NCBI GenBank assembly: GCA_036924285.1
Contig: JAYKYS010000007.1
Span: forward strand, 14,260,001-14,324,000
Direction: 5' to 3'
Length of the DNA stretch: 64,000 nt
DNA from: Asterella californica
Taxonomy: Eukaryota > Streptophyta > Marchantiopsida > Marchantiales > Aytoniaceae
The position numbers and the translations under genes are program-made. Numbering within the stretch: the first letter of the stretch is position 1; the number at the start of each line of letters is the position of its first letter. Shown piece by piece: positions 3,393 to 56,400 of the stretch. The notes under the pieces were generated by a model. It saw only the letters and a list, made by a program, of their open reading frames with translations, made no database searches and was not told where the DNA came from.

Positions 3393-4790
3393 TCCATTGC
3401 ACGTCATCCGGGTTATTTACTCCGCACAATACCTTCATCTCTTATCTTCATCTCGCGCCTTAGAGAGTTTGATAAGAGGATCATGGAGGTTCTTGACGAC
3501 ATCTTTGACATTTTGAGTGTGTGGCAAGACATCTCGCACGTAGACAAACATCTTTGCCGATATCATGTGACGAGGTGGCTTATTATCCATGGAGGAGACT
3601 GCTCCATCAGTCTTTTTGGATAGTTGGGTCCTCTCAACACCTTGGCTTATCATAGATATATTATAGAGAGTTGTGTGTCAAATGTGGAGGATGATTCTTA
3701 CCCATACAGATGGATCTTCGTGAGGCAAGAGATAGTTTGACTCTTGAGGCACTTGAGACACACCTCTCATATTTGATACCTTAGCTATCAGTGGATCCCA
3801 GGACTACAGTCCTTTTTGACGAGACACCATTTCCAGCAAGTTCTTCGTTCGCTCTTAGTCGATCTTTTCATCTCATAGGATATTGGAGCTCGACTCCGCT
3901 CTTGTCTCATAGTTCGATCTTGCATTAGAGCGTTTCGACTCACACCAACTATCTTCTCTACAGCGATGAGGTTCTGCCTAAGCTTGGTCCAGCTTGTTGC
4001 TTCGGCACTATCCATCTATGAGTGCGATGTCTCGCTCGACATCTCGAGTCGGCACCTTGCTCGCTGTCCTCATGATGGAGAGCGGATAGCTACCCATGAT
4101 GTCATCAGGGACATTGTGTTACGGAGAGAGCAGTTACATGGCGTGGAGGAGCGTTAGTATACTCTTCAAACAGGAGGATCAGTGAGAGCTGATCTGTTCA
4201 TGATGAGAGAGGATCATGTCTCAGTGACAGATGTGGTTATCACGGATGTGACACTGGATTCAGTGACGGCTCAGGTGATCACCCATCTCTCAGGATGCGT
4301 TACAAGCGTGACGGCAGCAGTGAAAGTGATAAGTATAAGAGTATGCAGGTGGGACATCGCTTCATCCCTTTAGCCTTGGAGATATACGGATCGACGATCT
4401 CGAAGTTTGACGTTTTTATTCGAGATTGTGCCAGAGCTTACCATGAGAGGTGGCAGGGATACCATTTTTTTTTCTTTTTGCACTACGGTTTTTAGACAAT
4501 GAGTTTTCATTGCTCTATAGAGAACTTTAGTAGGCACTGTCCACATGAGAGCAATTGCAGTAGGTGATGCTACTTCATGTGCACTTGTTGTATGCTGAAG
4601 TTTTGCTTACCGATGTGTGATATTTTAGGAGCGATAGGCAACTTAGAGCTATTGATAGTGGGATTTAGCCTCGATGTTCTTCCTCCCTTCGTTGGTTGCT
4701 TGGCCTTTCAGGTCCTTCTTTCCCTTGTAAGACTTGATGGGGTCTTTCCATCCGTTGACGACTCATTGCGTTGCGTGTTCACATCCACAA
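3386..4790 (+). mobile_element. REL-type non-LTR retroelement, 3' half, decayed (copy 1)
   Basis: This is homologous throughout to the minus-strand element at 41741-44900. Recognisable pieces in order: YLLRTIPSSLIFISRLREFD (end of the RT-proximal region, 3411-3470); a Cys/His region CDVSLD...RHLARC..DGERIATHDVIRD (4020-4115); the putative nuclease core RADLFMMREDHVSVTDVVIT (4185-4245); and the C-terminal GHRFIPLALEIYGST (4345-4400) and RAYHERWQGYHF (4430-4465). Stops and frameshifts lie between the pieces. The 3' untranslated end (4660-4790) shares TCTTTCCATCCGTTG and a CCTTCTTTCCCTTGTAAG run with the other copies. The 5' half, including the RT active site, is absent, as expected of a 5'-truncated target-primed insertion, although here the break coincides with the end of repeat Y. 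Confidence 0.65.
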
Positions 4791-21387: not shown

Positions 21388-24300
21388 ATGGATGGAGCCG
21401 TCGGGTTTGCAGATGAAATTGGATTGAAGAGGTTGCTGGTTACAGCTGCGTCGGTGCCGAGCTGGGAGTACGCTGTATTGTTGTTGGTAATTGTATTAGT
21501 TTGGCTCTATGATGTTCTGGAGTTACACTTCGTGGGAGATGCTTTAAATGCATGGAGAGGCGATGCTGTGCATCTAATTTATAACCCGAGATCGAGTGTT
21601 GCAGCTCAGTTGCTTTCCAAATGCGAAACTCTGACTAAAAGGTGATAGTCTCTTTGGCAGCATCAATTGTGTGGCAGACTTGCAACTTCGGCAGTTCGAC
21701 GCACGATCTCTAGTTTATTCTGTCTGCAACATGGTCAGGAGTTAGCCCTTGTTAGGACTTTAGGCATACAGAACATTCACGGGTGAGAAGTCGTGTAACA
21801 AGAAAATTCGTCAGAGTTCTCGAAGGCCATGAAATACGAAGTAGTAGCTTCTCTCTTTTAAGGTGATGAGAGGGTGAGATTTTCTCGCAAGGATTCTGTT
21901 GGTATTTATGGGGGAATGCGGTAGTTAAAAAGTGTTCGACGATTACGGATTTCTTTCTATTCCAGACTTGGGAAACATAATAGGTCAACAATTTCAATGT
22001 ACTCTGCGTTGGATGACTTTCTGTTGTAATTCAGGTATTTTCCCACACCCTGGCTTGCCAGCCCACATCTGCAGACTCTTTTCTTCCAGTTATTCGGAAG
22101 ATCACCCAGAGTTGATTACCAAAGGTATGCATCTTTCTTCTCCGGTACTCGCAACTGATCATAACTATGATATCTTTTCACAGAGGAAAACGGCTGCAAT
22201 TTGTAGTTCCCTAATCTCTAAGTCGTGTACCGTGGTGAGAAGAAGGTGCCATGTATGTACCGCAACATTCCTGCAGTATTGTGGTAGATCAGGTGACTGA
22301 GTGACCTCAGATGAAAGTATTTGTTCTCGAGAAAGAGTGAAGCGAGGTAGCTGGGAAATGTATAACAACAATTGAATTACAAGACTTGGCAGAAGGCAGG
22401 ACCAAGTTGCAAACGACTTCACACCTTTACCATGAGATCGATGGCATTCCCGGGTCTTGGTTGTGATCGAGCACGTGACAAGAAGTAGTTTTCAGAACTT
22501 AGTTATTCAGTCATTGTCGAGGAACAAGTAGAAGCATCCGAATTCCAGTAAGATATTGTCATCAGGAGATTGATAGAAAGTATTGTCCGTTTTGGTAGGC
22601 AACTGTATATTACTCCAGATGGCGGAACCATCGCTCTTGATTGGGTTCATCCATCGTCAGGCAAGATTCGCTCCATAGTTTGAATAACAGCACTTGTCGT
22701 TGACCTCATGGGTTACCAGTCTCTTCTGCCACTGAATGAAGGCAGTAGAGAGTTTCTGACGTCCTTTCTAAAGCTTGGATTGTGAAAACTCAGTTGTAAC
22801 ATCTTTTGTAAAGCTAAGTCCGACAAGTTTTGTCGACAAAACTGTGGCAGTTACGGTTAATGGGTGTGGTGAAGACACGCGTCAGGCTTCGGCTTCTGAT
22901 GAAACTCCCACCGTCGTCATAGTTCCAGGACTCACGAGTGATTCCAGTAATCACGTACGTCCAAGGCGCAATTCGTGTCATGAAGTTTTGGCATTCCTGT
23001 TGGAAGTTGTCTCAGTTTTATAAGTTTCTGTATAAAGTTTATTGGCGTACTACCGACGGGGTCCTCACTCCAGGCTGGCCACATGCTTCTAGAAGCTTAC
23101 ATGTGTACTCTTTTGCCCTGTGTCAAGCAGTACGTAAAGCACCTAGTGAAAGGTCTCTCTGACAAGGGGTGGCGAGTTTTAGTTATAAATCACCGTGGCC
23201 TTGGCGGGGTCTCTATAACTGTAAGTCCTGACCCTAGTAATCGATTGGCATAAGAGATAAACTCGATCGTCGTAGCTCCCTGAGTTCAGTTTCAAAGATC
23301 GATCCGAAAGGTGATTTCATTATTCCCAAGAATACATCACTTCTAACTTTTGGAGTTTACATTATTGCCAAGATTCGTCACTTCTAACTTTTGGAGTTAT
23401 GCTGCAGTCAGATTATTTCTACAATGCAGGGTGGACAGAAGACCTACGTAGACTCCTTCCTTACGTACAGCAGAAGTATCCGAAGTCGCCCCTTCTAGCA
23501 ATAGGCACAAGCATCGGTGCCAATATTCTGGTGCGTATATTGCAGTGACGGTTTTCAGGATTCTCTTGTTGTTATACTCGTTCTGGTTCACGGGAGTTGG
23601 TTTCTGAGGTGAGTTCACAAAGAAACCCTCCGGAACAGAATAGTAACTCCTAGACTGATGAGGCCCTGCTGAGTTGGGAATTTCTTGAATTCTAGTTGAT
23701 CTCCCTTTCCTTCTCATCTGTAGCCTGACCCTCTCGGCTATGTGCTGAAAATGTCAGAGACCAAGGTTGAAGTGCATGCCAGGGAAATGTATTACCAGCA
23801 TGCTTGGCATGTAATTCGTGGTAGTTAGGTATTTGGGTGTTTAAACACACCTACTCATTACCTACAGCTGCGTCAGAGACAATTGAGCAGAAAGTTGTTC
23901 GAACGATTTTCTGGACGAGTACCTATGCTTGTTGATCTCTGGTTCGATTTTCACGGGTTACCTTCAAGTGTATGTGGAAAGCTCTTGCGTTGTCCTGCTA
24001 TACGCGTAGGCGGTTATAAACTTGTTTTGTTTCATGGTACCCTCGTATCGGGATATCATATTGTTTCCTTCTTGTTTGGAGCTTAACAATGGTGCTGATA
24101 AAGTCGGACTACGGTTGAGGTGCATGACAGGGACGTGTGAATACCAGCATGCTCTGCGTATATGGTCGTTAGTATTTGTGTACACACCTTCTCATTACCT
24201 ACAATCGTGTCAGTGAGTTTTGAGCAGAAGTCTGCTCGAAGAGTTCCTTTTTCCCCGAGTTTGAGGATCTATGCTTCTTGGTCGCTCGCGCACTCTCTTC

Positions 24301-27300
24301 TCTCTTCTTTCCTTTTTTCCCTTAGGTTACTTATCATTCGCTTGATGTATGTCTGTTCACTGCACATTCTCATCTTACTAGATATGCATAACCCTTTATG
24401 GTATGTAATTCATGTTAAAAATTTACTAAACCTCTTTCTTTTGCTCTTTTAGACCTCGTTTCCTTTTCTACGTTAGAAACAGTATACGCATAGGTATGTC
24501 TGCACTGCATATTGTACTCTATATTGCACTTCCATTACCAGGGAGTACAGTGTGTAGGTGCTCTGTGCTACACATTCCCGTTGATCCGCCCCTTGGTTAC
24601 AAACATTCGCTAAATTGATGCTTAAAGTTAGCGCACATTCACATCCCTCTTTGCTGCTCACTATGTACTTCTCTGTAAAGTTCTCTGGGTTTTGGGCACG
24701 TTTATGAGCACGGTTCTTGATTCCAACTGCTGTACTCATGGCCCCGACAGAAACCTCTTGCTTCATTCGTGTTAGTTGCAGATTCATTTTGGACGTTTCA
24801 TTCCAACTAAATGCTAGTCCATTTGCACGGCTGTAACTCAGATTGCCGTCTGCATTAGAAAGATCATGCGTATAATCTAACTGCACTGCATACTGTACAT
24901 GTCATCCATACTGCACGTACGCACCAAGGGGAACAATCTCAGGAAATCTGCTCTGAGCTGGACATTCCCATATGTTTGTCCCCTGGTTACAAACACTAGC
25001 TAACTGAGGAGTACAGTCAGCACACATTCAGACCTCTCTATGCTACTTACTATGTACTTCTCTGGGCTCACTTTTCTCGGGTTACCCGAATTGTGTGAGG
25101 ATACTTCTTTCATCGAACTCCTAGCCTCGTGGACCGACATATACTTGTCTTATTTCCTTTCTTCTACACATTTGCTAGCCGGGATAGACGCAACCTGGTA
25201 ACACCTCTGTTCATTACAATACTCCTGTAGTTGCTACCGTTACTGCTTACATCTTTACACACCACACCTGAATTAGTTAGTCTGATAGGTGGAGAGCTAT
25301 TACGAGAGCCCGCTTCATGATGCCATATAGATGCGATATGGTTGTGATTTCTACTCAGCTTTTTACGCTTTCAACTCATTCTAAAGCTTCTCTATGATGT
25401 CCTAACCTCCTTTCTTTATGGTCCCTATGTTTCCAACCTGACGCCTTGCAAGCAGCCTGACGGAACTAAACAGGACCTACAATTGCAGATTCGAGATTAA
25501 GCTAGGTTGTCTTTGATCTGCTCCTGTGCCACTTAATGTTCCTCCTAGTGCAGTTGTTATCTGACCGTACTATATATTCCTTTGGACCGAACAAACATAA
25601 TTCCTCAGCTTCGACCTTCAAGCAGGTTCTTGTCCCACCTTGTACCATATTCTGCTAACACATAACTGTCCTCATTGCTCTTTCAGTCTTCTGCTTGCAT
25701 CATTATAGTGTTCGTTTCGCTGCCATTTCTGCTAGTTATTTGGTCACTTACATGTAAAGTTACGTTGAACCCCTACCTATGTTCGTTTATGGGCAGTCTT
25801 CTGCCAAGCTCACCGATCGGCCACTATACAAAGACGGGGCGGTCACTCAAAGATATTCTGGAATTGAATAGAAACTCCTCCACGAATAAGGCCCTGCTGA
25901 GCTCCTAATGTCCTCAACTTCGGTTTGTCACCTTTACCGCTCATCTATAGCCTAACCCACTATGCTGATGGTGCCCTCATTTCGGAAATCGTCCTGTCTC
26001 GTTCTTTTCTGGAGCATTAAAATGGTGCTGACGAGTCAGAGTACGGTTGAGGTGCATGCCAGGGGATTGTGAATACCAGCCTGCTCTGCGTATGTACATG
26101 ATCGTTAGGTGTTTCAGTGCACACCTACTCATTACCTACTGCCGTGTTAGTGGATCCGAGTTTGTGGATCTATGCTTCTTTGATCGTTCGCTGTACTGTT
26201 TACTGTCATAACCGTACATTCTCTATTCCTTTCTCGGTTAAGGTTACTGCATCATTTGCCCCGAAGTATGCTACCTGTTCACTGCACATTCTCATCTTAA
26301 TAGATATGCATTGACTCTATACGACGCCATTGATTTTATGACTTTACTAATGCATTCTGTACGTTGCATTCTAACTAATGCTAGCTTCTTTTAAGCTGTT
26401 ACACCTCGGCTTCTCTTCTACATTAGGATAGATCATGTGCATATTTCTGTCTGCACTACATACTGTACATGTGATCTTATTGTAAATACGAGGGGAGACG
26501 ATCTCTGGATATGTGCTCTATGCTACACATTCTCGCACGCTTGTTCCCTGGTTAGAAGCATCCCCTAACTGAGGCTTCAAGTTGGGCACACTCACAGCCC
26601 TCTATGCTACTTACTTTGTACTTCGTTGGGTTCAATCTTTGCGGGGCCTTAAGTGTGGGACGAGAGTTCTTCCATCGAACTGCTATAGTCATCTCCGGAC
26701 AGTACATCTTCTACACATGGCTTTTATGAATTCTCTTCACCGTGAACTATGTTTACATCGGGTCTGAACTAAAGCGACACCATCTGGAAATATTTCCAGG
26801 TAAAGTACCTGGGAGAAGAAGGGACAAAGACACCAGTAGGTGGTGCTGTGGCAATTTGTTGTCCTTGGGATCTTGTGGTAAGATTGCACTCCACGTTTAT
26901 TACTGCACCCCTTTCTGTGGCCTGTGGTGTATCACTATTGACTTCATATTACCCCCATGCTGTCAAGAGAAAAAAAGCGCTTATTTTATCTTACGAACAG
27001 ATAAATACTTTTAAGTGATACGTGCAAATTTCAATCAGCTTTTGGACAGATTCTTGTCAAGGAGGTTGGTACGTCGTGTTTACAGCAGAGCATTAGCTGC
27101 TGGTCTCTGTCAGTATGCCCAACTGTAAGACACTTTTCTGTGACTTTGTGCACATTTATTCAGGTGTGTGACAGATTCATTCAAAGAAAGTGGGTTCAAG
27201 CCCTTTACAACAAAGCTCTAGCAACTGGTCTTTTTCAGTATGCCCAAGTGTAAGTCCACCACACTTTTGGGTCAATAGATGATAGATTGCATGCTGTGAC

Positions 27301-30212
27301 TGGTGGCATATAGATTCGGGTCATCTTTCTAATCAGTGTTTCTTGCAGACACCAAACTGCTCTTTCGCGGATGATGGACTGGAATCTTCTTAGCTCGGTT
27401 AGCTCACCACCTTTGTGTGACCTCACTGAGTTGCTAACGGACATGCATCAAACATTCTTCAATGAGTCATGTATTGTACTCCATGTTTTTGTCGGCCACT
27501 GAAGTGTACCTTAGTGTTCCCCTAGTCAGCCCTTCCAGTCATATGTCTGCTACACTATTTAAACTTGACCATCAACGTAGCCGTGATCATAACGGAAGAT
27601 CCTGTCAAATAATTGACTCTGTTACCTGACGGAGTATACTTTACAGTTCTGTTCTCGTGTGATTTTGTTGGTGGAAAACTAACAGATCTACCCTTGTGTG
27701 GTTTTATTCAGTCAAGAACTGTTAGAGACTTTGATAACCACTGCACTCGACATGTGGGGAAGTATGAGGTAATTCTCCGTTTGGAGATCGTAGTGATTAT
27801 TTCTCTTGAACCTCGGCGTGGCATGTCTCTGGTTTTCGTTCATCCCATGTAATCGAGTAACTTTGAGCATGTTGTCGGATGTAGACTGTAGATACATATT
27901 ATCGCAGGTGCGGGAGTGCGCAGTTTCTGGAAAGCGTCGCCGTTCCACTTCTGTGCGTTAGTGCTGAAGACGATCCCATCTGCACCAAAGAAGCCATTCC
28001 ATACGATGAATGCAGGTAGTTGTTACCCGTTTTATTAAGCTATGCTTGCTACTTTTAGGTACTTATCAACAAGTTTGTGAGGCTATATTTAGCTACTCCT
28101 GTCTCCTACTTGTTCACATGGAGTTACATGGCTTGTATCGAGCTTCGGCTTTCTCCTGAATGGATCGAAATCATTTTGTCTATTCGATCAACGTACAGTT
28201 GGCCATCTCATATATGTGCAGGGTGAACTCCAATGTGCTACTTGCTGTGACGAAACATGGTGGCCACCTTGGGCACTTTGAGGGGTTAACTGCAAAGTCT
28301 ATTTGGTATATTGCTTCTCTCCTGGACATGGAAGTTGGAATGTTTCAGCTTTGATTTGTACTTACTGTGAGATTTGTAAACTAAGTACGAATTCCTGTAT
28401 TGTGAATGTAGATGAGCAATCCATACACAGTGTAACGTGCAATACAGAACACCTGTAGTGATAGTCGACAAACGTAGTAACCTTGCGATACGGCTTCTTA
28501 TCTTCTCGGTCTCGTGAATATTAGGAGTTTCTTTGGGAAGTTTGTGTTTCATTCATGATGAGGTTGCAGAAGCTTGATTGCGTCACATCCTTGAACTTTG
28601 GCAGGTACGTTCGTGTCATAACTGAATTTTCAACGTTTCTTCTTTCTAGTTCTCTCCTGCATCGGCAAATCGAAGTGAGTATATATCCACCCTTTTTATC
28701 TGAAGTATCAAACGTATCGAAATGAAATATAATGATTGGTCTCCAGGAATAAAGTAGCCGTGTCCTTTTGAGGCTTTACGTGGCTAGTGTACAGTTTGCA
28801 TTTTACTATTGCCCTTGGGCATCGTTGGTGGGATGCAACTTAAGTAGAGCTCGAGGAACGTTAGTGCTTTCAAGTAGTCACCGGTGCTCATCCGAACATT
28901 GTCGTATTGTGGTCATATCTATGGATACCCGCATCAGCTTGACCCGTCCCTGTCCCTCATCATACCAGCGTCAATATGCATTCAAACCTTAGGTCAGGAG
29001 CTGGTGATACAAAGGAGAGTTGATTGGTTATATTGGCCTGAACGTTCAGAGTCTTGAATCTGCGAGCACGAGAATGGGGTCAGACATCGACCAGGGCCCG
29101 TTCTTAGCTTTGGGTGACGACTGTAGAGTGGCTGCCGGTGTGGAGGATTCAAGTACTGTCTTTGAAAGGCCAGCAGAAACATCAGAGTTGAGACCGGAGG
29201 CATCGCTTGAGGAGATTGATCCACTGGTTGGCCCTCAGTTGATTAGGGACAAATCAGGGAGGTTGGCTTCAGAGCAGATGGCAGAGGATGGGAACTATGT
29301 AATGGTCGCTGACGATTTTGGTGGTCCTCTTTACAAGCGTGTGGCTGAAGAGTTTGAGAAGGGAGATGCTTTAACTAACGAGAGCAAAGGGGACAAGCAG
29401 ATAACTGGCCAAACAACGTTCAGATTGCAGATTCGAAGTTTCTCAGAACTGATGGCTCTGCAGTCCGTTTTGTCGCAACTTCTACAACAGGTGTTGTTCA
29501 TTTCAAATACAATTATTTTATTGTGCATAATAAATTGCTGTTAGATTGCTGTTAAGTTGCTGTTTTAGAATCTATGCTTGCAAATAATCCTCATCGAATT
29601 GATCGTTACGATGGAAATACTAGCTAACAATGGAGTCTCATTCAAGGAGTCAACGAGTCTCATTCACGTATAAGCAGGTGGGAATTATGAGCGGTGGTGT
29701 GGCCTAAGTCACCTTCACTCAAAGAAAGGCGAGACTTTCTCATCACAAGCTATCCTGCTCACTACCCCGTCGGTTTGTCTCATATGTCGCAGCTACGTCA
29801 GCAGTCCTCCGTCCCTGGCGAGTCTCGCCAAGATGCAGCTTCTGTAAATGTGGAGCCTCCCAGTCAAAGCAGAACTCTCGCAGGTCCAACACCTTTGAGT
29901 TCATCTTTAACGTTTGGTTACGGGGACAGTCAGAAGGAGAACAAGCAGAAGGCACCTGCGAAGGTATCAGTTCAGAACTCCGGCAAGAAAACGTCGCGTC
30001 GAGAAACAGAGGGAGGCCTATTGGTGAAAGCTAACCCTGAGAAGAAGGACCTGGCCAGTTATTTGGCATCGCAGAACAGGCGAACTTTCTGGCTTCTGAC
30101 GTACATTGCACTTATCACAACAGTTCCCTTCTTGGGATCTGCTTTAATGGTAAGAACTCGAGGAAAAATTCTGCAAGTATTCTCCCGGCACTGGGGAAAG
30201 TACAGTTCGTAA
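21388..30212 (+). CDS. Alpha/beta-hydrolase, EMB8-like plant family, 15 exons plus one duplicated exon
   Basis: Exons: 21388-21641, 22035-22124, 22599-22660, 22851-22954, 23131-23220, 23408-23530, 26800-26877, then 27039-27124 or 27164-27249, 27349-27397, 27712-27768, 27885-28015, 28222-28305, 28605-28674, 29050-29490, 29793-30212. Phases match at every junction, giving about 712 aa. Residues 26-50 form a membrane segment (YAVLLLVIVLVWLYDVLELH). The core shows FPTPWLASPHLQTLF, the oxyanion-region PGLTSDSSNH, NHRGLGG, the nucleophile elbow GTSIGAN (Ser), DDPICTKEAIP (acid) and KHGGHLGHFEG (His), so the triad is complete. The C-terminus has an acidic linker and a second hydrophobic segment (FWLLTYIALITTVPFLGSAL). 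Family members are membrane-associated hydrolases of unknown plant substrate. An AATAAA at 30258-30263 supports ending at 30212; alternatively a donor at 30150 could join 30630-30725. Intron 3 uses a GC donor (22661). Confidence 0.88.
22661..22850 (+). other. GC-AG intron in the hydrolase gene
   Basis: Exon 3 ends TCAG and is followed by GCAAGA instead of GT. The acceptor GTGGCAG at 22850 restores phase 1 and gives GTT-ACG-GTT. No GT donor nearby keeps both the conserved DGGTIALDW sequence and the frame. Confidence 0.65.
23531..26799 (+). repeat. Large intron 6 of the hydrolase gene with diverged tandem duplications
   Basis: Unit A (TGAGGTGCATGCCAGGG ... CACACCTACTCATTACCTAC) occurs at about 23755-23960, 24105-24290 and 26035-26215. 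Unit B (TCTGCACTACATACTGTACA ... TGCTACTTACTATGTACTTC) occurs at about 24480-24690, 24850-25075 and 26440-26640. Stretches around 23610-23750 and 25855-25980 (AAGGCCCTGCTGAG) also match each other. The order of units suggests an old duplication of 1-2 kb plus a shorter local one. There is no coding content; the other introns of the gene are mostly 100-400 bp. Confidence 0.65.
27039..27249 (+). other. Tandem homologous exons 8a and 8b of the hydrolase gene
   Basis: Exon 8a is 27039-27124 and 8b is 27164-27249. Both are 86 nt, both start in phase 0 after an AG and end before GTAAG. They encode DRFLSRRLVRRVYSRALAAG and DRFIQRKWVQALYNKALATG, each followed by a QYAQ block; 15 of 28 residues agree. 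Only 39 nt separate them. Because 86 is not a multiple of three, using both, or neither, shifts the frame and soon meets a stop; retaining the 39-nt spacer gives CTG-TAA at once. So only one copy per mRNA can be productive. 8a restores the family's usual YAQLHQ; 8b gives YAQVHQ. Confidence 0.75.
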
Positions 30213-41740: not shown

Positions 41741-44700
41741 ACCCAATGAATAGCCAACGGATGGGAAGACCACATCAAGCCTTACAAAGGAAAGAAGGAC
41801 CCGAAGGGCCAACCAATAACCACCCTGAAGGAGAGAACACCGGAGCTAAGCCTTGCTATCAGTAGCTCTAAAATCGCCAATCGCATCTATAATGTCAGAG
41901 ACCAAAAACTCAGTATCTCCACCTACAACAGGTGCACCTGAAGAGGCATCGCATATTGCGATTGTTCTCCTGTGAATGACGCCTGCTAAAGCTCTCTGTA
42001 GAGCAATGGAAACCCGCTGCCTGAAAAACATGATGCAGAAAGAAGAGAAAGTGGTACCCCTGGCGCCTCTCATGATAGGCTCTAACGCACTCTCGCAGAA
42101 AGACATCGAACTCCAAAGTTGTCGATCCGTATATCTCCAATGCTAAGGGGATGAAGCGATGTCCCACTTGCATACCCTTATATTTGGATATCTTCGTTGT
42201 TGCCGCCACGCCTGCAGCCCATGGGTGATCACCTGTGCCGTCACTGAGTCCCGTGTCGGATCCGTAACAACCACATCAGTCATTGAGACCTGATCCTCCC
42301 TGATCATGTACACGTCTGCTCTCACTGATCCTCCTGTCTGAAGGGCGTACCAACGCTCTCTCCACGTCATGTGATCGCTCTCCCGTGCTAAGACAAACAC
42401 GACGTCTCTGATGACATCATGAGTGGCTATCCGCTCTCCATCGTGAGAACATCGAGCAAGGTGACGACCCGAGGTGTCGAGCGAGACACCGCACTTGCAG
42501 GTGGATAGTGCCGAAGCAACAGACTGGACCAAGCCTAGATGGAACCTCATCGCTGTAGAGAAGATAGTTGGTGCGAGTCGAAACGCTCTAATGCAAGGTC
42601 GAGCTATGAGCCAAGAGCCTGCGCCCTTGTCCGAACAAGAGCGGAGTCGAGCTCTAGTATCCCGTGAGATGGAAGGATCCACTAAGAGCGTATGGAGAAC
42701 CTGCTAGAAGTGGTCTCCTGTCAGAGAAGACTGTAGTCCGTGAGATCCATCGGAAGATAAAGTATCGAATCGAGGGTGTGTCTCACGTGCCTCAAGAGTC
42801 AAACTATCTCTTGCTTCACAGAGACACATCTGTAGTGGGTAAGAACCATCCTCGACCTCTGTCACATAGCTCTCCAGGGGATAAGTCTATCTCGCACAAG
42901 AAAACGACCACAGAGCCAAGGTGCTGAGAGGACCCAACTACCCAAAAAAGCTGCCGAAGCAGTCTCCTCCATGGATAATAAGCCCACCCCGTCATATGAT
43001 ATTGGCAAAGATGTCTTCCTCCGTGCGAGAGATCCTACCACACAGTCAAAGGTCCCCGGTCCTATGATGTCGTCAAACACCCCCATGATCCTCCTATCAA
43101 ACTCTCTAAGGCGCGAGATGAAGATAGGAGATGGGAGTACTGTGCGGAGTAAGTAACAAAGACGTCGTGCTATGAAAGAGTAAAAGATACCAAAGTCAAC
43201 ATGTGGGTCCTCTAACGTAGGGAGATCCTCAATATGCATAACGTCCTCCGCAAGAGCAATATCTAAGAATCAAGAGACAAAGTCCTCTGTACCCACGGGT
43301 ACTCTGTGGATGCGTAAACCATCTAGAAGAGTAACAAATTCCTCTGGGAGCTGAAGGTCCGACGATATACCTATGGGAGACCAAGCCTTGCACTTTGACA
43401 CCTTCGTCCTCAGCCCTACCAAGGCCAATTGAGAAACAAGGTGATCAAAGACAATATCGACTTGGTCCGCCGGACCTACGATGTGCGTATCATCAGCTAG
43501 AGATGGAAAGACACAACCTGGAGCAGCCAAAGGCGGTGACGAAGAGAGCTTTATAGTGAGCTAAGACAAAGAGAGGTCCACGCAAAGGATCTCCCTGACG
43601 AGTCTCAGCAGCAGAGCTGATGACTGTAACCCTCTCTATCGTAAGACCGTGCTGGTAATAAATAGAAGAGGAAGAACCATAGAACGATCGCACGAAGAGA
43701 ACGAGACGCGCCAGAGATCCTCCGTCATCCATGAGCTCCCTAAAAATAAAAGCGCAGGAAATGCTATTAAAAGCATTTTCAACGTCTACTTGTAAGACCA
43801 TCCAATCAGGATGGATGTCCAAGAGAGCTCTAATGTCGAAAGACACAGACTCACAACCTCTCGACGTCGCAACCCCATACTGATGTGGACAAAGGTGGTC
43901 CTGAAAAATATCTCGAAGCTGAAGGACAATGATTCGACTGATAAGTCGTAAGAGAATCTCACCGATGACTATCGATCGAATCCCTCCACCATCCTTCGTC
44001 ATGGTCAAAAGTCTAGTTGCTCCCAGTACTTTGAGCTATAGACTGAGGAATATGTCCCTGAGCTACTGCTGCCGTTACCTGAAAAAGCTCCGTGAAATCA
44101 CTAGAGAGATCGTCTATCTGAAAACAATCCCGTAGGTGCTCGTAGACCATCCCAGACAGACCTCCAGAAGATAGACGTGGAGTTGTACACAAGACCTAGG
44201 CAAACAAAGATCTATCGAGACATAATGGCTCCTCAGGCTAATAGTCCTGAACCTCAAGTGGTGAGGGATCACTCGGTGAGGGATGAAAGAAACGCAACGC
44301 AACGATCGTCTCCTCAGTCTGACATGTCAATGACAAAGGATGCAATGCTCTGGCAGCTCTGCTATACTCTCCCACCTGACCTAACATCCTAGAACGTCGT
44401 ATGCGAACGGAAGATGAGACATCACGTGTAGAGACAGACTCACTCCTATCTCGTACCGCACGGACTGATTCCTCTTATAAGGCCGCCCAGTCACCTGCTT
44501 GGAATCTCCAAAGATGGGCCGCCATCTCCCGATGTCCTCCTCAGCCACCTCGAGTATAACGGAGGCACCAACGAAGAAATAACAGAAACAATAACCACGC
44601 CGCCTCGTCCCTGATGTTCCGTGCCAACATGTCGAGGGATAAACGGAATGCATGTCTCACCTCATCATGAAGAGCACGAGGTAACAGATGGAACAAATGC

Positions 44701-53300: not shown

Positions 53301-54799
53301 CAGCACCCAACAGAGAGGCTTAGGCTGTAGATGAGTTGGAAAAGTGGTCAATCAGATGAAAACTTAACCGACTCATCAGGGCCTTATCGGTCCCGGAGTT
53401 TCTGTTCAGTTCCGGGACATCTGAGGACAAACTGAGGGCAAATGCCGACTGGAATTAGCGATTTGTTTTATATCTATCAGTGGTGTTATATTAATACTTC
53501 AAGAATGGCAAATATGCTCAAGGACCACTCTCTAATATAGAGCCAGGCTAAGTACATAGTAAGAAGCAATTAGGGGCCGAATGTGCGCTAACAATCCCGA
53601 CTGGAGTTAGCGAATTCTGGGTGGTGTTAGTTTTAATCCTAAGTAGTTCGCTGTTGACGATAGCTAGTTTGGCCAGCATGGAGATGTTAGAATCTAGATG
53701 TGGTAGGCGTTCAAGTTAAAAGCCAAGAAACGGAGGGTGGTCTCTATTATCGAAGAGAGAGGTAGACCCGACTGTAAGGTTTAATTCGCAAGACTGTTTA
53801 GGTCTAGAGCCCTCCGCCTATAGCGTTGGGATCTAAGTACATAAAAGAATTGAAAAAAGGAATATCAATTACTAGCAAGTCGTCGACGAATCTACGAACA
53901 AAGGCGAGAGAGATTAGTACGTCGGGCGGGTATCTGCAGTAATCAAGCATTGCATGAACTCCGTTTCATAGGTGAGCAGGAAAAGGTTGGAAATGTATAC
54001 TGCACAGTTAGTACCCATGGGGATTCCAACAATCTGCTGGTAAACCGAATTCCGGAAAGTTAGAACGAGGTTATCCAGCAGGAAGTTGAGCCAGAGGATG
54101 ATGTTGGAGGCTTGAACCACTTTACATTGGTTTTTGTTAACTCCAACGATGTTATCCTATACACTATAGGATTATCTAAATACAGCAATCGATTTGACTT
54201 TCAGATCCAGCGGTCAATTTCACTATGCTTCAGGTGCTCATTCTTGTCTAGTTATGTGAACCCGTGTTCCACCCCTTCAAAGAGCGTTGTTAAGTGGTAA
54301 AGAGTTTAGAAAGAAACGAAGATCACCCTAGCGGGACAAGATCGAAAATGATATGAGAGCTGGAACTCACTGGATCAGCAAAAAGATTGTAAAGGAAGGG
54401 TTGGACATCTTCAAGCGTCTCCGGACCACCCAGATTCAGCAGTAGCACTCCAACGCGCTCCTCCTCTGTATATTTGTCCCCTGAGCCCTGAACCTCCACT
54501 ATCTCCTGTTTCGAGGCAACGGTTGCCTCGACGGTTGTAGCGGCCCATCTTTCCCTCCTAAAGCTTTTTTTTGAGTACTTTGCGGACAAAATCTGTCGGT
54601 TGACGCTAAATTCTCTGCCGAAGTTCGAGAGGCGGAGAGTGCATCCTTTGGAACGGTTATTCACAACCAAAACGAACGAAGAAGAAGTGGTTGATGCTGA
54701 AACCCCGACAGATCCAGAAGAGCCCGCCTCACTGCGGTCGTACTGACTCCCCAGGCAATTGCACGAATCTAGCCTAAAACAGGCCTGCAAGCATTGCAT
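47399..54799 (-). CDS. FC2: Ferrochelatase, plastid type with CAB/LHC-like C-terminal domain (9 exons)
   Basis: Exons on the minus strand: 54799-54371, 50438-50295, 50003-49902, 49760-49657, 49339-49213, 49071-48919, 48803-48703, 48489-48288 and 47623-47399. All introns are GT-AG and phases agree, giving 528 aa. The enzyme inserts Fe2+ into protoporphyrin IX, the last step of protoheme synthesis. Residues 1 to about 95 are Ser-rich and basic, a likely plastid transit peptide. The catalytic part begins [20 protein letters not shown]. It keeps [23 protein letters not shown], the active-site [23 protein letters not shown]-like [13 protein letters not shown], and [13 protein letters not shown] with its conserved Glu. 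Exon 9 encodes a linker, then [20 protein letters not shown], a CAB-type helix with the ExxNxR chlorophyll-binding motif. This tail is the hallmark of FC-II proteins; in the family it serves membrane association and regulation under chlorophyll synthesis. Intron 1 is 3.9 kb and holds mobile DNA; the others are roughly 120-670 bp. The shorter (CAB-less) FC-I type is excluded by exon 9. Confidence 0.95.
50439..53690. repeat. Nest of partial repeats in ferrochelatase intron 1
   Basis: Four repeat types are interleaved. Q (GAGAATGGCAGATATGCTCA, then AGGACCACTCTCTAGTATAG) is at about 51250-51305, 52650-52705 and 53500-53545. R (AAGCAATTAGGGGCCGAATG, then TGCGCTAACAATGCCGACTG) is at about 52566-52635, 52712-52785 and 53545-53630. 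S (GAGTAGGTGTACAC through TCTGTTCAGTTCCGGGA) is at about 51570-51832 and 53190-53445. T (GTAGATCATGAAGCGGGCTA) is at about 52248-52295 and 52337-52380. Q follows R in one place and precedes R in another, so these look like staggered partial copies of one element, whose intact order may be S-Q-R leading into the RT fragment at 53700-54120. Confidence 0.65.
53700..54120 (-). pseudogene. Reverse-transcriptase fragment inside ferrochelatase intron 1
   Basis: On the minus strand (same sense as the host gene) 54120-53938 reads [20 protein letters not shown], then [26 protein letters not shown] frameshift follows, then [14 protein letters not shown] (about 53900-53845), the RT catalytic box as FVDD, and a weak downstream match ([12 protein letters not shown]). 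The combination GIPMGTNCA plus (Y/F)xDDLL is typical of a distinct group of eukaryotic RTs often found beside Penelope-like elements; I cannot place it further. About 130 codons survive and at least two stops interrupt them. The repeats at 50.9-53.6 kb are probably tails of the same element. Confidence 0.65.
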
Positions 54800-56400
54800 T
54801 GCTTCAGAGGGAAATTACCCTGCTACTAAATTTCTACACAATCAAGGAGAGCCCAGCAAACATCCACTCTCCTCGTCTCGCCTTCTTCTTGCTTCTTCGA
54901 CTTCCGTGCGATTCACTTCAGTTCTCCTCGCTACAGATCGACGTGAACTCGTTCCTCGTTGGCCTGACTCCTGCACAGGGTATCCCTGGTATCAGTCGGC
55001 TGTGGGGATACCAAAACCTCGGACTCAGTCATCTGTGCGGCTGTAGACTGAACTGCATGGTGATAGGTCCTTACTTACTTCAACGGATACTTATCAGCAT
55101 CCGTTTTACAATAGTTTATGGAATATAATACCAGACCACAGTAAAGTACACGTGATTTATCTTCTAGATCACTTTACAAACAACATAACTCACTAGATAC
55201 GAGATCATTGTCCCGTCGATATCACGGTGAACGAAAGAATGCACTATGAGCGAGACCATCAAAGCTATCTCTGAGACAATATGGAGAGACTGGTGCTAAA
55301 GGCGTCCAGGACGATCGACGCGTATCGGTCGAAGGACAACTACCGCAGTGCATCAGAAGCATCTGAAGACAACAAGACGCACGAGCCTACTGCCTTCACG
55401 TATTTATCACTACTGTACAGGAGAAGTTCGACACAACCTATGATAGTTTAATGTGGTCTGACTGTGTGTCTACCTACACATAGTTGTAGATTATTTTTAC
55501 AGATAGTAACATCATGTGACAGAAAAAGAGGCTTCTAAGGCCGAAGTGTTACTAGAATACGAAAGCGTCAAACACGGCAAACAGAAGGTATATGAACAAG
55601 TTCAAACCAGAGAAAGCGTCTAGGTTAAGAGGGAGAAAATTCCTGCGATGAACTTTACATTATCAATTATGGAAAGACTCTGTAAGTCGAATGCCTCATG
55701 AGGAGAGAAAACAGCTTCTGGAGAGATGAGACATTGACACTACTGCAGAGGTAGATCTAAAGCAGGATATCACATAGAAAGGATGTAAAGGACTGCTGTC
55801 CCGTACAATTACCATGACAAAAACCTCCCAACCCCTAACCAAAATAACCAATTAGCTATCTAAGTTTCCCTTCTCAACTGAAGGAGTTATGACTCGAGAA
55901 AAACCTGCTGGAAAGGTTAAACAAGTTCATCCACTGCGAAAGCACCACTGCCTCACTACATAAAACAAAAAGCATACGCAGACCAACCCACGCCATATGG
56001 AATGACTCCTATTTCCGACCAATAAAACTATTCCTTCTAGAGCAACCCAATTTCACGAAATTCCGGGACACTCTAGTGCTCCTAGCTCCAACCTGTACCA
56101 CTTTACGCCTTGCTTCCACGTAAAAATTGCCGCTAAACCCTCAACTCGAAGAGTTTTAACTGTTCTGACGATAAACGTCGATCCTCAAAACCTGGTCCAC
56201 CATCTCCCTCGGGCAAACTTCTACCAAAATATTTCATCTTAAAGATACTCTCGGGTTACTCTAGTAGTATACTCCACACTAAAGTCCCTGGAGCGCCGAT
56301 GGCTGACTTTCAGCGAAAGTACTCCTTGCAGCATAACGCATGACGCTTGGAAGGCTTCGACGACAACTAGTCGATAAAGATAAACTTCCACGAGTTCACC
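54800..56400. promoter_or_regulatory. Upstream region of ferrochelatase, otherwise nothing recognised
   Basis: The first 200-300 bp to the right of 54799 must contain the minus-strand promoter. CT-rich sequence on the plus strand (54870-54930) becomes purine-rich in the leader. No TATA box is evident. From 55100 to 56400 no supported feature was seen. Confidence 0.3.

Follow-up and report, generated by a model that had tools for sequence, protein, structure and literature searches.

The stretch of DNA considered here (the window, 64,000 nt in full) comes from the liverwort Asterella californica and contains, on its plus strand, a long hydrolase gene in which exon 8 is present in two adjacent and divergent versions, here called 8a and 8b. 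The features of this gene that matter for what follows are listed below.

21388..30212, plus strand: EMB8/ABHD1-3-type alpha/beta-hydrolase gene, complete from start to stop codon, with 15 exon positions and 712 aa
26800..26877, plus strand: exon 7, the last shared exon before the pair, with a phase 0 end at ...CPWDLV
26878..27038, plus strand: intron 7 as far as 8a, 161 nt, similar at its 3' end to the spacer
27039..27124, plus strand: exon 8a, 86 nt, the divergent version LLDRFLSRRLVRRVYSRALAAGLCQYAQ(L); AG before and GTAAGA after, and see the family-fit test
27125..27163, plus strand: spacer, 39 nt, comprising GTAAGA and a stretch apparently copied from the 3' end of intron 7 (20/26 aligned columns match)
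27164..27249, plus strand: exon 8b, 86 nt, the orthologous version VCDRFIQRKWVQALYNKALATGLFQYAQ(V); AG before, GTAAGT donor, and see its identity to Riccia and Marchantia
27250..27348, plus strand: intron 8, 99 nt from 8b and 224 nt from 8a
27349..27397, plus strand: exon 9, which supplies the final base of the split codon and stays in frame only when a single one of the pair precedes it

Elsewhere in the window, frames on the minus strand at 41910-44035 resemble, by eye, reverse transcriptase and other retroelement parts, and a fragment related to them lies on the plus strand at 4193-4495, near the opposite end of the window. The minus strand at 54323-54814 carries part of an apparent ferrochelatase gene.

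The hydrolase gene and its family

The exons of the hydrolase gene were placed by tblastn of homologues, and the rebuilt open spliced model (exons 1-7, 8a or 8b, and 9-15) encodes 712 aa. All of its introns are GT-AG but for one GC-AG intron after exon 3 (intron 3, 22661-22850), whose donor, CAG/GCAAGA, is the sole non-GT donor of the model. Intron 6 (23531-26799, 3269 nt), just upstream of exon 7, contains 11 families of diverged direct repeats, with 2-3 copies that are about 65-97% alike to the reference copy. Many of them recur at intervals of about 340-390 and 1560-1940 nt, a pattern suggestive of the multiplication of part of the intron.

A near-complete version of the model matched its homologues from Riccia fluitans at 70% and Marchantia polymorpha at 68%, each over 100% of the query, the next relatives among the matches listed being Riccia sorocarpa (66%) and then the liverwort Calypogeia (52%) and Sphagnum. 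The orthologues are R1flu_024093 in R. fluitans and MPTK1_7g11160 in Marchantia. Homologues of the 712-aa protein are annotated, among the matches listed, as EMB8 or ABHD1/3-like, and a 294-aa part of the model is recognized by Pfam Abhydrolase_1 (PF00561; E 2.2e-18). The Riccia orthologue also matches NF008218/PRK10985 (E 1.9e-42), at 145.7 bits, which is under that model's cut-off of 267. In an alignment of 60 sequences, S231, D356 and D357 are invariant and H386 is nearly so, and the motifs GTSIG, EDDP and GGHLG are found in the protein from the window; the acting residues are presumably the nucleophile Ser in GxSxG, Asp and His, as in the alpha/beta-hydrolase fold. Judged from its sequence, the 712-aa protein is an alpha/beta hydrolase of the EMB8/ABHD1-3 family, combining the Abhydrolase fold with full-length homology to EMB8-like proteins. 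A search of solved structures by sequence with the 294-aa part gave no match, and Foldseek returned general alpha/beta hydrolases, headed by the Pyrococcus esterase Pf2001 at 20% identity.

In the AlphaFold model of the R. fluitans orthologue (mean pLDDT 72 overall, and 83-89 in blocks over the exon), the exon-8 segment corresponds to residues 264-292 and coincides with two helices (262-269 and 273-292). With these two begins the cap, which lies between strands 252-256 and 349-354. It appears from this model, therefore, that exon 8 matches a structural unit. The earlier note had assigned the segment to a single lid-proximal helix, which was close: the segment does stand first in the cap, but takes in two helices rather than one.

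The genome assembly comprises 516.7 Mb in 773 contigs. A hunt for processed copies, which would record splicing, found no second copy of the hydrolase gene in this genome by a 601-base DNA search and a protein search in which the best candidates were scored. An older paralogue of EMB8 type (L009, G000:C627:28176000-28185900) lies on the same contig, some 14 Mb off, and tblastn found no tandem exon pair like 8a/8b in it. A further candidate, L010, was taken for a chance match. On a contig of 338 kb, the same hydrolase family is represented in long open frames (L011, G000:C283:8000-17900; the frame at the match is of 981 aa); this contig looks non-plant, perhaps fungal at a guess, and the assembly may hold contaminant contigs.

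Frame, spacing and splice signals of the exon pair

Exons 8a and 8b are of equal length and run from phase 0 to phase 2, each with its own AG acceptor and GTAAG donor. They align without gaps, with 59/86 nt identical, and encode the same residue in 15/28 whole codons (15/29 if the split codon is included). That so divergent a pair (27/86 sites differ) might be an artefact of assembly is hardly credible: both copies stand on one 32 Mb contig, and the region matches the genome once.

In the spliced model, inclusion of either exon alone gives 712 aa followed by a stop, through introns whose sizes, from the model coordinates, are ordinary (161, 286, 224 and 99 nt for the four productive ones). Inclusion of both leads to a stop at codon 315 and omission of both to one at codon 282, and if the spacer is retained, ...QYAQL is followed by TAA at codon 297, directly after 8a. 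Exclusivity enforced by the reading frame thus follows directly from the sequence, and the pair presents what would be looked for in tandemly duplicated mutually exclusive exons (MXEs): homologous neighbours, equality of length and phase, and predicted unproductive outcomes of double inclusion and double skipping. In all this the rebuilt model bears out the earlier note, which had described two 86-nt exons with their own AG and GTAAG signals, a 39-nt spacer and 15 of 28 residues shared, had predicted the stops that result from using both exons, neither, or the spacer, and had placed the junctions at 26877, 27039, 27124, 27164, 27249 and 27349.

These premature stops lend themselves to another reading, in which 8a would be a regulatory switch, faulty products (such as 8a with the spacer) lowering the amount of enzyme through nonsense-mediated decay and the protein form being minor. 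The immediate TAA on spacer retention, and the stops on inclusion of both exons or neither, are as this would have it, but 8a alone gives a full open frame, and a pure poison exon would need none of the residues typical of the family, which 8a nevertheless keeps (see below); we consider this reading improbable.

The spacer, at 39 nt, compares with 99-3269 nt for the 14 other introns of the hydrolase model, and is probably not long enough for excision as an intron. A length of 56 bp has been given as the experimentally validated minimum for an intron, in an account that also cites human introns of about 30 bp, and others as short as 10 bp, while its authors doubt their spliceosomal removal (PMC6310983). 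The least distance between 5' splice site and branch point has been put at about 50 nt (PMC7969005), and any branch point inside the spacer would lie less than 50 nt from the 8a donor, by a threshold that comes from animal work. The suggestion in the earlier note that direct joining of 8a to 8b is sterically unlikely therefore stands under both of these published figures, and is weakened by the claims of shorter introns and by the animal origin of the limit; a steric block to 8a-8b joining is plausible, 39 nt being no proven bar. A simple scan for yUnAy gave no convincing branch point, the sole match for 8b being 6 nt from the acceptor and the sole match for 8a 46 nt.

The acceptor of 8b is the more pyrimidine-rich (13/20, of which 10 are T, against 10/20 with 7 T for 8a), and its donor is GTAAGT rather than GTAAGA. 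Both signals would favour 8b as the default. The RNA fold of 26878-27348 is not exceptional (z -1.5; 10/100 shuffles fold equally well), and for this reason we see no sign of docking or selector sites in that interval.

Orthology, origin and selection

Exon 8b is, by its identity to related proteins, the orthologous form: it shares 26/29 residues with R. fluitans (P0121), 23/29 with Marchantia (P0122) and 20/29 with R. sorocarpa (P0123), against 17/29, 17/29 and 15/29, respectively, for 8a. All three marchantiid proteins found (two from Riccia and one from Marchantia, as proteins only) carry the 8b form. Among 249 homologous proteins in the matches listed, none has an 8a-like segment (at least 20/29 residues; the best reaches 19/29), while 6 of the same 249 have at least 20/29 residues of 8b; the records had been collapsed at 90% identity, which would hide a near-identical isoform of a relative.

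Several observations bear on how the second copy came about. Between the spacer and the 3' end of intron 7, 20/26 columns match when the splice consensus is left out (P 0.0004 by 5000 doublet shuffles). An alternative derivation of the spacer, from the beginning of intron 8, was considered and rejected: GTAAG and ACACTTTT are common to the two in a global alignment, but the local score is unremarkable (P 0.29). The simplest history is probably a tandem duplication of about 125 bp in which the part taken from the intron was only about 33 nt. Given this likeness of the spacer to the end of intron 7, the duplication probably made the exons exclusive at birth: on this inferred step, the gap would have been too short for splicing from the outset, and exclusivity would have required no further evolution.

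The date of this event is suggested by the Cys of the GLC motif, which is present in 8a and in 3/3 marchantiid proteins, and in 0/197 of the other distinct segments among the matches listed; 8a therefore very likely arose within the marchantiid lineage. Leu10 and Arg13 of 8a, however, are unlike the marchantiid residues and like those of the wider family (Leu in 116/197 segments and Arg in 84/197), which could reflect either retention from an early duplication or a return to the family state. A tree on just 29 columns rejects none of the arrangements considered (8a with 8b as a clade, p 0.28; 8b with the three marchantiids, p 0.45; all five together, p 0.45).

Has 8a been kept by selection? 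The evidence comes mainly from its fit to the protein family. Exon-8 segments were taken from 239 proteins among the matches listed (of 335 and 677), and when the three marchantiid proteins were left out and identical segments collapsed, 197 segments remained. Against these non-marchantiid segments the mean BLOSUM score of 8a is 76.7 and that of 8b 79.1, placing them at the 7th and 12th percentiles, respectively, of the family members' own scores. In neutral simulations that started from 8b (on the assumption that the ancestor was like 8b) and introduced 27 random substitutions without selection, the copies averaged only 20.8 (25.6 with more transitions), and among stop-free simulations the score of 8a was reached by 0/6000 with the observed transition share and by 0/5796 with a share of 0.6. 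When the simulation was repeated, 0/20,000 draws matched 8a; with 10 of the substitutions left unconstrained 0.15% did so, and with five, 3.5%. As neutral draws miss the family score of 8a in this way, most of its changes seem to have passed selection, and 8a has probably been kept working for most of its history. In the alignment of 60 sequences, 8a retains 3/3 invariant positions of the exon-8 segment and 6/7 nearly invariant ones, the exception being Gln275, replaced by Arg in a column that is 99% Gln in the 197 segments.

Other comparisons leave room for drift. The synonymous/nonsynonymous test, a weak one here, is compatible with neutrality (pN/pS 0.60; P 0.107 by simulation, 0.134 by Fisher's test), 8a and 8b agree to a similar extent at each codon position (21/29, 20/29 and 18/28), the exons are no more alike (59/86) than the copied stretch of intron (20/26), and the residue identity of the two is ordinary for drift, 15 or more shared residues occurring in 12 to 20% of stop-free draws. 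The objection raised in the earlier note, that one copy might be a dead duplicate, could draw on these points, and also on the finding that about a third of neutral draws (0.33 and 0.29) are still free of stops at such divergence, pN/pS being not significantly below 1. It is largely countered by the family fit, which no draw in 20,000 retained, and drift from the very start is strongly disfavoured.

What survives of that objection is a more recent death, in which 8a, after long use under selection, would now be skipped and would only just have begun to decay. This would agree with the weaker 8a acceptor, with the loss of the near-invariant Gln, with the three marchantiid proteins showing the 8b form alone, and with the lack of anything like 8a among the 249 listed homologues. 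The splice signals, frame and length of 8a are intact, however, and few of the 27 substitutions can have been unconstrained, given the 3.5% of draws that pass with five; recent silencing is therefore unlikely, while being the most probable of the alternatives to a pair in which both exons are in use.

Known exclusive exons and a proposed history

The swapping of tandem exons is a well-known source of protein variants in animals (PMC6071210), and the earlier note had called it rare in plants. This is fair for annotated cases only: exons 2 and 3 of Arabidopsis FLM/MAF1 are an established plant example (PMC3266260, PMC5853260), and Kassiopeia (PMC3923563) predicted 99 internal exons as MXE candidates in Arabidopsis, of which, by that account, none was then annotated as such. 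Tandem MXEs are thus an already known kind of arrangement, including in plants, and 8a/8b is a well-supported candidate member.

The likeness to FLM/MAF1 lies in the possession by a plant gene of two short adjacent exons, which in FLM/MAF1 encode 19 and 15 aa and of which one or the other is included; deletion of single exons by CRISPR shifts the ratio of the two protein forms (PMC3266260, PMC5853260). FLM/MAF1 is, however, a MADS transcription factor in which the splicing has been demonstrated and is temperature dependent, whereas the liverwort gene encodes an enzyme and has been read from DNA. Moreover, the 3' exon of FLM/MAF1 is described in those accounts as cryptic and is not presented there as a copy of the 5' exon, whereas the liverwort exons are homologous, identical in length and made exclusive by the frame. 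The criteria used by Kassiopeia (like length, same frame, homologous neighbours) describe 8a/8b as well, and the liverwort pair carries, unlike those Arabidopsis predictions, an added test of selection.

Exons 4a and 4b of vertebrate OGDH (PMC7969005) likewise belong to an enzyme gene, and their exclusivity is attributed to branch points that lie too close to the preceding 5' splice site; these have been mapped to 25-41 nt from the donor, a long way from the 3' splice site, whereas in the liverwort the whole spacer is only 39 nt. Dscam exon 17 and other MXEs ascribed to steric hindrance or RNA structure (PMC6071210) are also tandem and exclusive, steric hindrance being one of the mechanisms named there, but the liverwort pair differs from the RNA-structure cases in having no evident docking-selector structure. 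Among the titles and abstracts in the matches listed, no tandem MXE was found for this gene or for a named liverwort gene; a paper on R. fluitans (PMC12513226) counts MX events, the genes being unnamed in that account.

The reading that we prefer, with a probability of roughly 0.65, is that 8a and 8b form a working mutually exclusive pair, derived from a duplication of about 125 bp and giving two forms of the enzyme. The duplicated segment, in the marchantiid lineage, would have comprised exon 8 with the last 33 nt or so of intron 7 before it and the first nucleotides of its donor after it, leaving two interchangeable exons 8 in one gene and, since the copied portion of the intron was just about 33 nt, a new gap that measured about 39 nt from the start. 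There would then hardly be room for U1 on the 8a donor together with U2 at a branch point for 8b, and 8a would not be joined to 8b. Two routes would remain, one from exon 7 across 161 nt of intron to 8a and thence across 224 nt to exon 9, the other across 286 nt to 8b and thence across 99 nt to exon 9. Wrong products (with both exons, with neither, or with the spacer kept) would carry early stops and be consigned to nonsense-mediated decay. Exon 8b would be the probable default, and the use of 8a would yield a second form of the enzyme, altered in the first pair of cap helices by the Arg in the 99% Gln column and by the change of a neighbouring Ala to Arg. The earlier note had suggested that the two versions might differ chiefly in surface charge, and the isoforms perhaps in substrate or membrane contact. 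A stronger version of this history, to which we would give even odds, is that a single short duplication was exclusive from birth for want of enough copied intron, that selection then kept both exons as interchangeable cap modules, and that no control of splicing had to evolve.

If the preferred reading is true, a single gene encodes two enzymes with different first parts of the cap, and a spacer in which the copied end of an intron can still be recognized would illustrate how one mutation can give rise to exclusivity. The pair is testable in plants closely allied to the model Marchantia, and would be a natural experiment on the first cap helices of a large plant hydrolase family.
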